Assembly (NCBI RefSeq): GCF_000769655.1
Contig: NZ_CP008887.1
Span: 1-64,000 of the forward strand
Source of the DNA: Thermococcus eurythermalis
GTDB taxonomy: Archaea > Methanobacteriota_B > Thermococci > Thermococcales > Thermococcaceae
Length of the DNA: 64,000 nt
Direction of reading: 5' to 3'
Part shown: positions 50,483 to 57,362 of the stretch, in pieces
How positions within the stretch are numbered: position 1 is the stretch's first letter
How the letters are laid out: every line of letters starts with the position of its first letter
Notes under the pieces: generated by a model
Database searches by the model: none
What the model saw: the letters and a program-made list of their open reading frames with translations, nothing else
Told to the model about the DNA's origin: nothing
Program-made: the position numbers and the translations under genes

Positions 50483-51061
50483 ATGGAAATAGAGGTGCCC
50501 TACGTCCTGTTCAGGACAAAATCCGGGGTTTATGGACTGGACAGCTATTTCTACCCCGCTCTGGAGAGAGCTGAGCACAGGGCGGCCCTGCTTAGAAAGA
50601 TGGAGCTAAAACCGCTCCCACAGGTCAGCGGGGAGTACCACGTAACCCCAGACAACGTGAAGGACATCCTCAGGGAGCTTGCCCTCGAACTGTACAGGCT
50701 CGCGGGCAGGAGCTTTGATGAGAGGAGCAAACACATGAGGCGCTGGAACATACTCCGCTTTCTGGGGATTCCCTCAGGCTACCTCAAAAACCTGAAGAAG
50801 GACGAGGAGCTGGCGGGAAGGATAAGGAGGGTTCTGCTGGCACTCTCGATTGTAGAACACGTCCTCGGGATAAAAGGCCCCTCAGACCTGGAGAACCTCT
50901 CAGTTGAGCCCCTTGGATGGGCCGTCTTCAGGCTGGAAGTGATGGACGGAAAACCAGTTGACCCTGTTTATGCACAGCTCTACGAAGACGACGCCGGTTT
51001 CAGAAGGGCCCTTTTCGGGCTCCTGCAGAAAGAAAAAGGTTTAGAAAAGGAAAGGTCATGA
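50483..51061 (+). CDS. Hypothetical protein
   Basis: 192 aa, mainly helical. Features include PYVLFRTKSGVYGLDSYFYPALERAEHRAALLRKMELKPL and RRWNILRFLGIPSGYLKNLKKDEELAGRIRRVLLALSIVEHVLG. TATA-like GGTTTTATATG lies at 50438-50448. Start uncertain between 50471 and 50483; weak ribosome site. No family recognised. Its end overlaps the convergent dppF by 6 bp. Confidence 0.6.
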   Translation: MEIEVPYVLFRTKSGVYGLDSYFYPALERAEHRAALLRKMELKPLPQVSGEYHVTPDNVKDILRELALELYRLAGRSFDERSKHMRRWNILRFLGIPSGYLKNLKKDEELAGRIRRVLLALSIVEHVLGIKGPSDLENLSVEPLGWAVFRLEVMDGKPVDPVYAQLYEDDAGFRRALFGLLQKEKGLEKERS

Positions 51062-52033
51062 CTTGGCGTAGAGCCAGCAGGCCACGTAGTGATCCTTCTC
51101 GACCTCAACAAGCGGTGGCTCCTTCTTGTCGCAGAGCCCGGCCTTGGCAAAGGGACACCTCGGGTGGAAGTGACATCCCTCCGGCGGGTTTATCGGGCTC
51201 GGCGGCTCGCCTTCTATCCGGGCACGCTTCTTCTTGAGCTCCCTTGCCAAGTCGGGGTCAGGGACGGGAATCGCCGAGAGGAGCATCTGGGTGTATGGGT
51301 GCAGTGGATTCTCGAATATCTTCTCAGCCGGGCCGACTTCCACGAGTTTTCCGAGGTACATCACACCCATCCTGTGGCTCATGTACTTGACGACACCGAG
51401 GTCGTGGCTGATGAAGAGGTAAGTGAACCCGTACTTCTTCTGGAGGTCCTTGAGCATGTTGAGAATGTTCGCCTGAACCGAGACGTCAAGAGCTGAGGTT
51501 GGCTCATCGAGCACGATAAACTCCGGCTTGAGGGCGAGGAGCCTTGCGAGGGCTATCCTCTGCCTCTGTCCTCCTGAGAACTCGTGGGGGTAGCGGTAGA
51601 GGTGCATCTCGTTAAGGCCGACACTTTCGAGCAGGTCTATGACGAACTCCTCCGGGTCGTCAACCGGGATGCCGTGGAAGCGGACCGGCTCCATTATGAC
51701 TTCAAAGACAGTCTGCCTCGGGTTCAGGGAGGAATATGGGTCCTGGAACATTATCTGGGCCCTTCTCCTGAACTCCTTCATCTCGTCGCCTTTTATCGTG
51801 GTGACGTCCTTACCGTCAAAGATTATCTTTCCGGACGTTGGCTCTATGAGCCTCAGTATCGTCCTTCCCGTTGTCGTCTTTCCACAGCCGCTTTCACCCA
51901 CCAGTCCGAAGGTTTCACCCCTGTTTATCTCGAAGCTTATGCCGTCAACGGCCTTAACGTATCCTATAGTTCTGAAGAGTCCCCTGACGGGGAAGTACTT
52001 TTTGAGGTTTTCAACCTTGAGGAGCGGTTCCAT
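51056..52033 (-). CDS. dppF: Dipeptide/oligopeptide ABC transporter ATP-binding protein (second)
   Basis: 325 aa. Walker A GESGCGKTT, signature FSGGQRQRIALARLL and Walker B FIVLDEPTSALD are intact; the C-terminal oligo-HPY domain has GCHFHPRCPFAKAGLCDKKEPPLVEV with Cys ligands of an Fe-S cluster. Last gene of dppABCDF. GAGGTGGTGACG precedes the ATG at 52033. Confidence 0.93.
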   Translation of the reverse strand: MEPLLKVENLKKYFPVRGLFRTIGYVKAVDGISFEINRGETFGLVGESGCGKTTTGRTILRLIEPTSGKIIFDGKDVTTIKGDEMKEFRRRAQIMFQDPYSSLNPRQTVFEVIMEPVRFHGIPVDDPEEFVIDLLESVGLNEMHLYRYPHEFSGGQRQRIALARLLALKPEFIVLDEPTSALDVSVQANILNMLKDLQKKYGFTYLFISHDLGVVKYMSHRMGVMYLGKLVEVGPAEKIFENPLHPYTQMLLSAIPVPDPDLARELKKKRARIEGEPPSPINPPEGCHFHPRCPFAKAGLCDKKEPPLVEVEKDHYVACWLYAKS

Positions 52034-52043
52034 CGTCACCACC

Positions 52044-53024
52044 TCAGTACAGATGGCAGGCCACGAAGTGGCCGGGTTCTAACTCCTTCAGCTTCGGCAC
52101 TTCACTTCTGCACCTCTCGGTCGCGTAGGGGCACCTCGGGTGGAAGCGGCATCCCTTCGGAGGGGTTATCAGGTTGGGCACGGTTCCAGGTATTGCCTCA
52201 AGCCTCTCTATCTTCGCCAGCGGGTTCGGAACTGCCCTCAGCAGGCCCTTTGTGTACGGGTGGAGCGGGTTTTTGAAAATCTGGTCAACGGAGCCTATTT
52301 CGACGATTTTGCCCGCGTACATGACAGCAACACGGTCCGCCATCTCGGCGACGACACCCATGTTGTGCGTGATGAGTATCACCGTCGTGTTGTACTCCTT
52401 CTTGAGCTTGTTCATGAGGTCGAGTATCTGCGCCTGGACAGTTACGTCAAGGGCCGTGGTCGGCTCGTCCGCTATCAGAATCTTCGGGTCGTTGGAGACA
52501 CCGATTCCAATGACGACACGCTGTTTCATACCACCGCTGAGCTCGTGCGGGTAGTTCTTGACCCTGTTCTCCGGGTCTGGAATTAGGACGCGCCTGAGTA
52601 TATCAACGGCCTTTCTGAAGCCTTCTTTCCAGCCCTCCACAGTCCCGTGAACCACCATGGCCTCGGCAATCTGATAGCCGACCGTGTAAAGCGGGTCGAG
52701 AGAGGCGTGGGGGTCCTGGAATATGTAGGCTATCTCCCTGCCCCTTATCTTCCTGATTTCCTCTTCGCTGAGCTTCAGCAGGTCTATGGTAGACCCGTCG
52801 TCCCTGTGGTAGAGCACTTTGCCCTTGACAATCCTTCCAGGGCTCTCTATCAGCTGGGTCAATGCCCTCGACGTGACGCTCTTTCCACAGCCGGTTTCTC
52901 CAACGAGGGCGAACGTTTCTCCCCTGTAGACGTCGAACGAAACGTCCTCTATCGCCTTGACTATGCCTGCATAGGTGTAAAAGTGAACAGTGAGGCCGCG
53001 GACTTCGAGTATGGGCTCAGGCAT
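52044..53024 (-). CDS. dppD: Dipeptide/oligopeptide ABC transporter ATP-binding protein (first)
   Basis: 326 aa. GETGCGKSV, LSGGMKQRVVIGIGVSND and ILIADEPTTALDV are the nucleotide-binding motifs; C-terminus has GCRFHPRCPYATERCRSEVPKL. ATG at 53024 after GGGTGAGGAGA, overlapping the dppC end. Confidence 0.93.
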   Translation of the reverse strand: MPEPILEVRGLTVHFYTYAGIVKAIEDVSFDVYRGETFALVGETGCGKSVTSRALTQLIESPGRIVKGKVLYHRDDGSTIDLLKLSEEEIRKIRGREIAYIFQDPHASLDPLYTVGYQIAEAMVVHGTVEGWKEGFRKAVDILRRVLIPDPENRVKNYPHELSGGMKQRVVIGIGVSNDPKILIADEPTTALDVTVQAQILDLMNKLKKEYNTTVILITHNMGVVAEMADRVAVMYAGKIVEIGSVDQIFKNPLHPYTKGLLRAVPNPLAKIERLEAIPGTVPNLITPPKGCRFHPRCPYATERCRSEVPKLKELEPGHFVACHLY

Positions 53025-54177
53025 TCTCCTCACCCTCCTTTTCCTCCATCTGCTTCTGTTTCTTCACCTTGAACTCTATGCTGCGCCTCATCTTGGGGTC
53101 GAGTATGTCCCTAAGGGTGTCACCGAGGAGGTTCCATCCGAGGGCCACGATGAGTATCATGAAGCCCGAAAACGTGACTAGCCACCACTTCTCAGGGAAG
53201 TACTGGGAGCCGTCGTAGACTATCCTACCCCAATCCGCTATCGGCGGGGTCGCACCGAGACCGAGGAAGCTCAGGCCGGCCTCCATGAGGATAACGCCAC
53301 CGAAGTCGAGGGTTATGTAGACCAGTATCGGGCCCACGATGTTTGGTAGGATGTGCTTGAACATTATCGTCCTGGAGCTCAGTCCTATCGCCCTCGCCGC
53401 CTCAACGTAGAGCTTCTCCCTCTCCGTCAGAGTTGAACCCCTGGTTATCCTCGCATATGCCGGCCACCAGACTATGACCATCGCCAGTATGACCGCCAGC
53501 AGCTTTCCGAGGTTTCCTGCCTCCTGCGGCTCCAGCGCGAATATCCTGAGGAACAGGGTCTCGAAGAACTCGTGATTGCTGATGAAGGACTGCAACCTAT
53601 CCGGCAGGACGGCGGAGAACGCTATGGCAAGGATTAACGCCGGGAACGCAAGGAACATATCGGTTATACGCATTATGAGCTCGTCTATCTTTCCCCCGTA
53701 GTAGCCCGCAACAAGGCCAAGGATTATGCCGAGGGGCACTCCGAGGACTATGACTATGATTGATATCACGAACGACGTCCTTGCTCCGTAGAGGATTAGG
53801 CTCAGCAGGTCCCTACCGTAGTGGTCGGCACCGAGGGGATAGGTTATTGTCTTGTCGGCGAACGGCAAATACGCCTTGGTGCCGGGGGGCGCGAGGTAGG
53901 TGGTCATGTTCTCAAGGGCGGGGAAATAGCGGTAGCTCCACGGCGCAATGCTCGGTCCAAAGATGCCGAGGAAGATGAAAATCCCTATCAGGAAAAGGCC
54001 GATTAACCCGGGGGGCGAGCGGTTGAGGGCGTAGAGCATCAGCTTCCATTCTTCCATCTTCGAGCGGTTCTTATTCTTCCAGTCCTTTTTGAAGAGGGAT
54101 ATGAACGAGCCTATTGCATCGACGAGCTTGTCAGCGAGCCTGTCAAGAATCCCCTTCTTGTATTCTTCCTGCGTCAT
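53017..54177 (-). CDS. dppC: Dipeptide/oligopeptide ABC transporter permease
   Basis: 386 aa. A cytoplasmic N-terminal extension of about 55 residues precedes the OppC_N helix (SPPGLIGLFLIGIFIFLGIFG), then five helices with the EAA loop YVEAARAIGLSSRTIMFKHILPN. Larger than bacterial DppC by the N-terminal extension and a loop of about 45 residues within the membrane domain (LPDRLQSFISNHEFFETLFLR). Confidence 0.9.
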   Translation of the reverse strand: MTQEEYKKGILDRLADKLVDAIGSFISLFKKDWKNKNRSKMEEWKLMLYALNRSPPGLIGLFLIGIFIFLGIFGPSIAPWSYRYFPALENMTTYLAPPGTKAYLPFADKTITYPLGADHYGRDLLSLILYGARTSFVISIIVIVLGVPLGIILGLVAGYYGGKIDELIMRITDMFLAFPALILAIAFSAVLPDRLQSFISNHEFFETLFLRIFALEPQEAGNLGKLLAVILAMVIVWWPAYARITRGSTLTEREKLYVEAARAIGLSSRTIMFKHILPNIVGPILVYITLDFGGVILMEAGLSFLGLGATPPIADWGRIVYDGSQYFPEKWWLVTFSGFMILIVALGWNLLGDTLRDILDPKMRRSIEFKVKKQKQMEEKEGEENA

Positions 54178-54189
54178 GTCACCACCACC

Positions 54190-55191
54190 TCAGTACCTCA
54201 CCCTCGGGTCAACGACCGCGTACAGTATGTCCACTATCAGGTTGGTCGTCACGAAGATCAGGGCGAAGATGAAGGTTATCGCGACCACCGCCGGGAAGTC
54301 GAGGTTCCTTATGGCGTCCAGGACGTAGGAACCCATTCCAGGCAGTCCGAAGACGGTCTCGGTGATCGGAGTTCCTCCGAGCAGTCCGCCGAACTGAAGG
54401 CCCAAAACGGTCAGGATTGGGACGAGGGCGTTCTTCAGGGCGTGCCTGTATATCCTGAGCTTGGGGACGCCCTTCGCCTTGAGGAAGGCCACGTAGTCAC
54501 TGCTGAGGGCCTCAAGGAACGAGTTCCTCACGAACCTGGCGAGGACTCCAGAGCCGGTAAATCCAAGGGTGAGGCCCGGAAGCCAGAGCCTGTGGATGTG
54601 CTGGGCGAACGTCGAGAAGTCCCCCGTAAGGAGCGCGTCTATCATAGGGACGTGAGTTATCACACGTTCGGGTGGAGCCGGGAAGCCCGCCAGGGTTATG
54701 ACACGCCACTTGACGAAGAAGATGTACATGAGCATGTATCCCAGCCAGAATATGGGCATTGAAACACCGGTCAGGGCGAATATCCTAACCACGGTATCAA
54801 TCCACGTGTTCCTCTTGAGCGCGGCGAGTATACCGAGTGGAAGACCTATTATCAGGATGAAAAAGAACGCCACCAGCGTCAGCTCAAACGTTACCGGAAA
54901 CCTCTTTTCGATATCGTCAAATACGTAATTCGACGTCCTCGGGTCAACAATCTTGTTCCTAGCGAGCCCACTAACCAAAAACCAGTACTGCTCGTACCAG
55001 GGGTCGTCCATATGGTACTGCTCACGTATCCTCTGGATTGCATCAGGGGTAGCCTTTTCTCCACCCGCCCACGCCCTTGCGGGGTCGGCGGGGATGACAT
55101 AGGCGATAAGGAACACAATAAGAGTGACTCCAATTATTGTGGGTATAAACGTCAAGAGCCTCCTGACGAGGAACTTCTTAAGGTTGGCCAA
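54190..55191 (-). CDS. dppB: Dipeptide/oligopeptide ABC transporter permease
   Basis: 333 aa. Opens LKKFLVRRLLTFIPTIIGVTLIVFLIAYVIPADPARAW as in DppB/OppB, with the EAA loop YVAFLKAKGVPKLRIYRHALKNAL. Six helices. Follows dppA by 56 bp and is 12 bp upstream of dppC. Confidence 0.92.
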   Translation of the reverse strand: MANLKKFLVRRLLTFIPTIIGVTLIVFLIAYVIPADPARAWAGGEKATPDAIQRIREQYHMDDPWYEQYWFLVSGLARNKIVDPRTSNYVFDDIEKRFPVTFELTLVAFFFILIIGLPLGILAALKRNTWIDTVVRIFALTGVSMPIFWLGYMLMYIFFVKWRVITLAGFPAPPERVITHVPMIDALLTGDFSTFAQHIHRLWLPGLTLGFTGSGVLARFVRNSFLEALSSDYVAFLKAKGVPKLRIYRHALKNALVPILTVLGLQFGGLLGGTPITETVFGLPGMGSYVLDAIRNLDFPAVVAITFIFALIFVTTNLIVDILYAVVDPRVRY

Positions 55192-55247: not shown

Positions 55248-57362
55248 TCATTCAGAGACGTTAACCTCAAGGCTCTTGAACTCGGTGGCACCGTAGAGGA
55301 ACGGGCCAACCCAGTTGTCGGAGTCGAGGTAGTCCGGAACCCATCCGACGACGTAGACGTCGTAGTCGCCGTGCTCGGTCTTGCTGAGGTAGGTCGGCCA
55401 GTTGTAGCTGTTCACGGTGACCTGGAAGCCGAGCTGGCTCCAGACGTTCTGTATGAGGGTCATAATCTTCTCACGGGCGGCGTTGCCCTCGTTGTAGATG
55501 AGCTCGATGGAGTACTTGCTCGGGTCAATCCCGGCCTCCTGGAGAAGTTGCTTGGCCTTGTTGATGTCGTAGGTGTACTTGGTGATGCCCTCCTCCATGT
55601 ATCCCGGCCACGGCTTGGGTATCGGGCCGTAGTTGGGCTCCAGGAGTCCCTGGTAGACGAGCTGCCTTATCTGGTCGTACGGAATGGCGTAGGCAAGGGC
55701 CTGCCTGACCTTCGGGTTGTTGAAGGGCTCCTTCTGGGTGTTGAAGACGAGGAACGTCAGAATCGGCTGGAGGATGTCGGTCTTAACGACCGAGTGGAAG
55801 CCGTTGAGCTCAAGGCCCTTCACGCTGTCCATCTTCTCAGGCGGTATCGCGACGACATCGGCAGTACCGGTCTTGAAGAGGTTTATCCTGGCCTGGGCGT
55901 CGTTGTTGATGACGTAGATGACGTACTTGTGACCTGGGCTGCCCGTGGCGTTCCAGTAGTGCGGGTTGTACTCGAGGACTATGTAGCTGTTCTCCTGGTA
56001 GTCCTTGACGTAGAACGGTCCGGTTCCAACGGGCTTCTGATGCATGAGCTGGTGGGTCGGGTCGTCCTTGCCGGACTGGAGGTAGTCCCACCACGCGCTC
56101 GGGTCGTGGCCGTTGTTGCTGGCCTGCAGGGCCTCTTGGTACTTGTCGCCGAGGAGGTACTCCATCGGGACGACGCTGAGGAACGGGTCAGCGAGGATGC
56201 TCAGAACCGGCGCGTACGGGTTCGGGAGGACGAGCTTGAAGACGCCCGCGGTCTCGCCGCTGTATCCGAAGAACTGCTTGAGCTCCTCAACGGAGTGGAT
56301 TTCCTTGACCTGACCGTTGAACTCGGCGATGAGCGGGTTGTCCTTGAGGTAGCCATCAAGCTCCTCCTCGCTAATCGCCGCCGAGTTGTTGACGTCCATA
56401 AAGCTGTCGACCATCCAGCTGACGCTGTGTCCGAGCCTCTCGACGCGGAGGAACGTGAAGGCCACATCGGTAGCGTCTATCGGGTAGGTCTTGTCGTTCC
56501 ACGGGTCATATGCTTTAACTCCACCGCGGATGAGGAAGTACCACTCGGTGCCCTCCTTGTTGTGGGCCCAGGCAACCGCCAGGTCGGGGCTGACGGTCTC
56601 GGTGTTCTCCTTCCAGTAGGTGACGAGGGTGTCGCCAATCTCGTGCCAGAGCTCCCATCCAAAGGTCTCGTAGGTCATTGCCGGGTCAAGGCTCTCCGGC
56701 CAGCCGATTGTGGCTATGACGTAGGTCTCAGGGTCGTTCTTGTAGTCCTTGATACCAATCTTGACTGAGGGGGCGTTCGAGTCCTCGCTGAGGAGGTCGT
56801 AGCGCTCGGCAAGGGTCGGGTGGTAGTAGCGGCCCTTCACCCAGTCCCAGTAGACACGGAGCTGCTTGTTCTGTCCGAGAATGGCCTCAGGCACAAGCTG
56901 GTTTCCGAGTATGTAGAGGGCCTTGAAGATTTCAGTTCTGACCTCGGGGTTGGTCTCGCGCCTCGCCGCTATGACGAGGGCATCAACATGCTCGTCCCTG
57001 AAGAACGCGGGGTTAATCGCACCGAATCCCTGGCCCTGCTCCATGAGGGTCTTGACATCGGGGGTGTTCTCCGTGTCAACCTCGTAGCTGACCCTTATGA
57101 CCTTCTTTCCTGAGGGAAGGTCCACCGTCGGTTCAGCCCCCTTAGGTCCGACAACAACTACGCTCTTATCGGTCGTGACGACATAGACTTTGCCCATCTC
57201 CAGGACGCCGGTCTGAGCTGGCTGTGACGAAGTTTCACCCGGCGAGGTCGTCTGCTGGGTGCCGGTTGTGGTTTCGCTTTCACCACCGATGCAGCCGCTG
57301 GCCACTGTCGAAAAAACAACCAAAAAAACAACCAGCATGGCTATTGTAGCTCTGCTTTTCAT
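55248..57362 (-). CDS. dppA: Peptide-binding lipoprotein, apparently circularly permuted
   Basis: 704 aa. Signal peptide with lipobox VASGC (Cys24), then a Thr/Gln-rich linker. Residues about 112-185 (NPAFFRDEHVDALVIAARRETNPEVRTEIFKALYILGNQ through WVKGRYYHP) read like the segment that normally closes SBP_bac_5 proteins. The usual N-terminus (VIATIGWPESLDPAMTYET) begins only near residue 215, and the protein stops abruptly after VVGWVPDYLDSDNWVGPFLYG. Binds peptides for DppBCDF. Start chosen by GAGGTGG and the signal peptide; a 49-codon upstream extension is rejected. Confidence 0.9.
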   Translation of the reverse strand: MKSRATIAMLVVFLVVFSTVASGCIGGESETTTGTQQTTSPGETSSQPAQTGVLEMGKVYVVTTDKSVVVVGPKGAEPTVDLPSGKKVIRVSYEVDTENTPDVKTLMEQGQGFGAINPAFFRDEHVDALVIAARRETNPEVRTEIFKALYILGNQLVPEAILGQNKQLRVYWDWVKGRYYHPTLAERYDLLSEDSNAPSVKIGIKDYKNDPETYVIATIGWPESLDPAMTYETFGWELWHEIGDTLVTYWKENTETVSPDLAVAWAHNKEGTEWYFLIRGGVKAYDPWNDKTYPIDATDVAFTFLRVERLGHSVSWMVDSFMDVNNSAAISEEELDGYLKDNPLIAEFNGQVKEIHSVEELKQFFGYSGETAGVFKLVLPNPYAPVLSILADPFLSVVPMEYLLGDKYQEALQASNNGHDPSAWWDYLQSGKDDPTHQLMHQKPVGTGPFYVKDYQENSYIVLEYNPHYWNATGSPGHKYVIYVINNDAQARINLFKTGTADVVAIPPEKMDSVKGLELNGFHSVVKTDILQPILTFLVFNTQKEPFNNPKVRQALAYAIPYDQIRQLVYQGLLEPNYGPIPKPWPGYMEEGITKYTYDINKAKQLLQEAGIDPSKYSIELIYNEGNAAREKIMTLIQNVWSQLGFQVTVNSYNWPTYLSKTEHGDYDVYVVGWVPDYLDSDNWVGPFLYGATEFKSLEVNVSE

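Follow-up and report, generated by a model that had tools for sequence, protein, structure and literature searches.

A circularly permuted SBP_bac_5 lipoprotein in a Thermococcus dpp operon and its differently rotated archaeal relatives

Circular permutation and the SBP_bac_5 family are each well known, and natural circular permutations are usually encountered as single old events. The closest described systems to the protein studied here are DppA, OppA and NikA (PF00496), with which it shares the sequence family, the predicted fold, an aligned peptide-amine-binding Asp residue and the position as first gene of dppABCDF. However, these proteins are arranged as N1-N2-C, which is the usual order for SBP_bac_5 although the Pfam middle-region model does not demand it, whereas the archaeal protein runs C-N1-N2 and carries an extra beta-rich module, termed E. 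A rotated module order with the fold kept has likewise been described for saposin/swaposin, DNA methyltransferases and transhydrogenases (PMC3320104); what differs here is a large binding-protein family with about six break points, at least four departures from the canonical order and rotations interleaved on the tree. Circularly permuted periplasmic binding proteins have also reportedly been engineered for biosensors, being cut open and rejoined or domain-inserted (e.g. PMC6335823); such proteins are man-made, whereas the archaeal permutations are natural and fixed. A full-text literature search with incomplete coverage of subscription journals returned no report of natural permutation in SBP_bac_5 or solute-binding proteins, only engineered sensors and unrelated papers.

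The window, the whole 64,000-nucleotide stretch of Thermococcus eurythermalis DNA analyzed here, contains on its minus strand an ORF (55248-57362) for a 704-aa dppA-like SBP_bac_5 lipoprotein with the module order signal-linker-E-C-N1-N2. The features, with the evidence for each, are as follows.

55248..57362, minus strand: circularly permuted SBP_bac_5 lipoprotein gene (dppA-like), 704 aa (sequence, profiles)
57291..57362, minus strand: signal peptide with lipobox ASGC and Cys24, residues 1-24 (sequence)
57216..57290, minus strand: Ser/Thr/Gly-rich linker, residues 25-49 (sequence)
57030..57215, minus strand: E module, predicted beta-rich insert, residues 50-111 (module comparison, AlphaFold)
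56754..57029, minus strand: C module, the canonical C-terminal helix-helix-strand segment placed at the front, residues 112-203 (profiles, structure matches)
55947..56747, minus strand: N1 module (A+B), the canonical N-terminal part, residues 206-472 (profiles, structure matches)
55251..55943, minus strand: N2 module (D+F), the canonical middle part, residues 474-704, last residues ...DYLDSDNWVGPFLYGATEFKSLEVNVSE (profiles)
54190..55191, minus strand: dppB permease (ORF, domain search)
53017..54177, minus strand: dppC permease, OppC_N + BPD_transp_1 (ORF, domain search)
52044..53033, minus strand: dppD ATPase, ABC_tran + oligo_HPY (ORF, domain search)
51056..52042, minus strand: dppF ATPase, ABC_tran + oligo_HPY (ORF, domain search)

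As seen, the dppA-B-C-D-F operon is complete, adjacent and co-directional, with the permuted gene first, in agreement with an earlier sequence-only reading that had placed an intact gene with this ORF in a complete dpp operon. The stop codon lies 56 bp from dppB, and there is therefore no space for a concealed C-terminal segment. The Pfam SBP_bac_5 (PF00496) match is strong (245.9 bits against a gathering score of 32.4, E 9e-73) and spans only residues 257-692 of the 704; it misses the rotated order, as had been foreseen for simple domain tools.

The family was cut into modules A and B (N1), D and F (N2), E and C by window numbering, with one HMM per module. These HMMs replaced a search of doubled sequences with a canonical-order HMM, which reported too few permutations, its match being broken in two by the signal and linker and counted as two domains. 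The C-module HMM (residues 112-203) was built from permuted proteins only (alignment A1) and run without a threshold. In 89/89 canonical ORFs, from bacterial loci and one Nitrososphaeria locus, its best match fell directly after F, at an offset of 1 to 5 aa (binomial p ~1e-101, taking a register window of 41 positions). The window protein stops where this segment would be expected and carries it ahead of the canonical start, both of which the sequence-only reading had claimed: C precedes N1, the canonical N1-N2-C order is absent, and each module is present in a single copy. The anticipated split domain matches were also obtained, since Yersinia pestis DppA was matched in three out-of-order stretches, with window residues ~209-306, 434-688 and 126-193 corresponding to DppA residues 27-125, 198-448 and 468-535, respectively (A1 profile positions 161-258, 386-640 and 78-145, to which ~48 is added to obtain window residue numbers). 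A single-sequence search against solved structures gave the same out-of-order pattern, the third piece being weak. Together with relatives that show the canonical joins between modules at other places along the chain, these results confirm, at the level of sequence, that the protein is a circularly permuted SBP_bac_5 chain made of homologous, single-copy modules in a cyclically rotated order.

AlphaFold predicted the window protein as one confident body (mean pLDDT 90.4, pTM 0.87), in which the C module adopts a helix-helix-strand arrangement. Using Foldseek, the comparison of which depends on sequence order, the best matches of the model were DppA, HbpA and OppA (~500 aligned columns, probability 1.00, TM-score by target ~0.6). 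For the N2-first relative L113 (pLDDT 90.5, pTM 0.85), ~375 columns were aligned to the same structures, which is the length expected because its D-F-E-C part is collinear with them. When rotated by 244, L113 aligned with the window protein over 649 residues with 74% identity, 96% secondary-structure agreement and a score of 2653, versus a score of 1492 and only 432 aligned residues without rotation. Both models are confident across the C segment and, going by the secondary structure predicted for the window protein, the sites at which relatives are cut lie in its loops. The rotated body is thereby predicted to retain the two-lobed DppA/OppA fold, a prediction made without an order-independent superposition of the models.

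All full-length classified ORFs of the family are cyclic rotations of A-B-D-F-(E)-C, comprising 126 canonical, 71 (E)CABDF, 26 DFECAB, 5 FCABD and 1 DFCAB, with 103 permuted in all; the only ORFs left unassigned were two truncated ones. Because the ORFs were collected by their resemblance to permuted queries, and overlapping fetches may count some genes twice, the 126:103 ratio is not a frequency. The order with E and C before N1 extends beyond the Thermococcaceae into further archaeal phyla, occurring in L039 (a Sulfolobales MAG), G216, G285, G304, G372, G392 and others. Another genus of the Thermococcaceae, represented by three genomes (G022, G023 and G024), has the N2-E-C-N1 order, as do many other archaea, and its ends are NPYYWNATLWEQLYGYKP at the C terminus and K..H..VLY at the mature N terminus. 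CN-type proteins (L039, L133, L245 and others) are cut within E, so that part of E lies at the C terminus. A cut at D|F occurs in L172 and L214-216, from four genomes of one archaeal genus, and separately in L223, whereas the cut falls inside D in L038 (~48 residues into it) and in L262 (near the stretch equivalent to NTQKEPFNN). L256 is an apparent further F-C-A-B-D case, classed by eye with its F module below threshold. L038, L256 and L262 each rest on one record only; that of L256 is on one contig, and the other two come from fragmented assemblies or MAGs.

Several side observations were made on these relatives. The E module (~60 aa, beta-rich) is limited to members of the main permuted clade, and an S-layer origin for it was considered, for which Pfam gave nothing convincing for the ends of L134 and L039. 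The permuted member L134 (1066-3450, minus strand) is extended at its C terminus by ~150 aa, the end of which weakly resembles an EF-hand, and in L262 (4355-6451, minus strand) a CARDB domain follows the N-terminal membrane segment and precedes the permuted binding domain. The single-contig genome G548 encodes two permuted proteins of different rotation (L250 and L251), each with its own dppBCDF.

Next, a tree of 83 proteins was built from the concatenated modules. One clade (support 100, stem 0.55), which adjoins canonical archaeal proteins, unites the C-before-A proteins cut at F|E, within E, at B|D or in the manner of L038. The starred branches force four changes from the canonical order (the main clade, the D|F cut twice and L262) and, inside the main permuted clade, at least three changes for each of the two main rotations. 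A single clade of N2-first proteins, without L038, was rejected (p-AU 6.3e-5), and a single clade of D|F-cut proteins gave a p-AU of 0.045. The tree has long branches, and the independence of the two D|F-cut groups is borderline in the AU test. The tree and AU tests therefore indicate that rotations switched more than once, or that recombination or transfer mixed them. On this tree, the family has left the canonical order at least four times, with rotation switching in addition inside the main permuted clade.

A broader proposal, which we offer only tentatively and hold to be somewhat less probable than its opposite, is that permutation in archaeal family 5 proteins is a repeated and possibly continuing switching among E-C-N1-N2, N2-E-C-N1, C-N1-N2, F-C-A-B-D and other orders via tandem-duplicated intermediates, with the break selectable by the tether exit point. 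Another reading would have the rotations selected rather than neutral, the membrane tether being shifted to another face and permease docking being altered. Rotated proteins keep the N-terminal anchor and flexible linker, so that each rotation shifts the tether exit point, and certain breaks are met more than once, D|F at least twice and B|D in several clades; however, there are no functional data, and the recurrence may merely show which loops tolerate cutting. Selection of this kind is possible, but we consider it less likely than not.

In the window protein, the canonical C-terminal segment has been joined to the canonical mature N terminus through a linker of ~20 residues, and new termini have been opened in the loop following the ligand-site motif GWVPDYLDSDNW. 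The front of the chain is still formed by the signal peptide, the lipid anchor and the linker, with the rotated body presumably feeding DppBCDF; transport is an inference. Archaeal relatives have opened the circular fold at other loops (N1|N2, inside D and D|F). Both canonical termini of DppA/OppA lie in domain I, near enough to be linked, and the permutation would be tolerated because of this closeness and, as we infer, because the anchor is attached through a flexible linker. The likely route, which is inferred, is that the gene was duplicated in tandem and in frame, that the inner signal sequence was lost and that, as a last step, the redundant front and back were deleted behind the retained signal and linker, which follows the general tandem-duplication-and-trimming model of circular permutation (PMC3320104). 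L223 and the canonical L170 are close relatives that share an N-terminal membrane segment (MSKNALYGIIALVVIVIIVGA versus MKKSAIYGIIAVVVIIIVVVA). The canonical end is FYSLYK in L170 and FYHLYK in L223, the canonical mature start is NPDTF, and the C-to-A joint of L223 reads FYHLYK-DPNAT-NPDTFTW, that is, canonical end, five residues and canonical mature start. Judged from these sequences, the joint fits tandem duplication, loss of the inner signal and then trimming of the ends, the route itself being inferred. A terminal overlap in L256 was considered as a trace of duplication and found unsupported by alignment, and no tandem-duplicated intermediate was seen among the family members classified. 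Gene fission followed by refusion in another order is also an accepted model for circular permutation (PMC3320104), but we regard it as the distinctly less probable route, given that the intact dpp operons showed no free-standing half-genes, that a signal or membrane anchor with its linker still stands at the front in the rotations examined, and that the L223 joint resembles a direct tail-to-head fusion.

Alternatively, residues 112-203 could have been added in front of an ordinary SBP, either as an extra domain or by partial duplication, and not be a displaced C segment. The length of 704 aa exceeds that of most canonical relatives, and the E module is without counterpart in canonical members, in which F and C are separated by 7 to 22 aa. 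Nevertheless, the chain has only one C module and ends shortly after F, the homologous segment follows F exactly in every one of the 89 canonical ORFs, and F, E and C are contiguous in N2-first relatives, where E sits between F and C. In L113, for example, F is followed by E and C, the canonical succession at a chain position that differs from that in the window protein. The case named beforehand as refuting a permutation, in which residues 112-185 form a separate domain and the C-terminal lobe lacks nothing without them, fails on sequence, as no second C-like segment is present, and an added domain is hardly credible.

The circularly permuted order is also conserved among homologues, a point that the sequence-only reading had proposed to check in other Thermococcales. 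It is present in open frames in ~56 Thermococcaceae genomes at identities from 91% to ~52%, the second genus having another rotation. Compared with close relatives, the C module has a dN/dS of 0.04 to 0.13, which indicates purifying selection. That the rotated order stems from an error of sequencing or assembly or from a pseudogene, as the MAG contigs among the relatives and the frameshifted or degraded copies in G036, G049 and G099 might suggest, can be practically dismissed, because many of those genomes are single-contig and carry it in intact frames and the whole-gene dN/dS against Thermococcus relatives is 0.10 to 0.17. The G036 and G049 copies (L127 and L128) are Thermococcaceae copies of the permuted gene, and G029 apparently has two permuted-gene copies (C1:2-1360, 1818137-1820272 and 1860545-1861318), one of which spans the contig start. 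Across window positions 55251-57218, the synonymous difference (pS) against the nearest relative (L005) is 0.09 in N1, 0.36 in C and 0.78 in E, an unevenness that suggests recombination between strains.

A complete dppBCDF adjoins nearly all rotated genes, most of which are first in their operon. Asp677 is invariant in alignment A1 and aligned with Asp436 of DppA, whereas the position of DppA Arg383 aligns with Asn in the family profile consensus (DppA precursor numbering); both DppA residues are mutated in PDB 8z1z, as far as the structure title indicates. The DppA dipeptide-binding equivalog NF043070 of NCBIfam scored 127.6 bits, far under its cut-off of 1005. The "dipeptide" label of the sequence-only reading was thus not upheld, and owing to the Asn and the low score, "peptide-type" is the better description. 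From the intact dppBCDF neighbors and the invariant Asp677, we infer that the rotated proteins are functional in transport, no binding, expression or structural experiment being available; a literature search on expression of the Pyrococcus orthologue found no usable text. Both the ligand and what caused the permutations are likewise matters of inference. Overall, we estimate at about 95% the probability that the gene encodes a functional peptide-type SBP family 5 lipoprotein with a circularly permuted chain, a reading that joins an observed order, conservation and operon to a predicted fold and an inferred transport role.

Domain tools class permuted SBPs as ordinary members, and their rotated chain order is overlooked. 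The family amounts to a natural permutation scan, since it includes rotated as well as unrotated members, both kinds in intact transporter operons, and has a large two-lobed fold opened at about six natural break points. With it one can test directly how a permutation comes about, which loops accept new termini and whether the position of the tether matters in ABC import.
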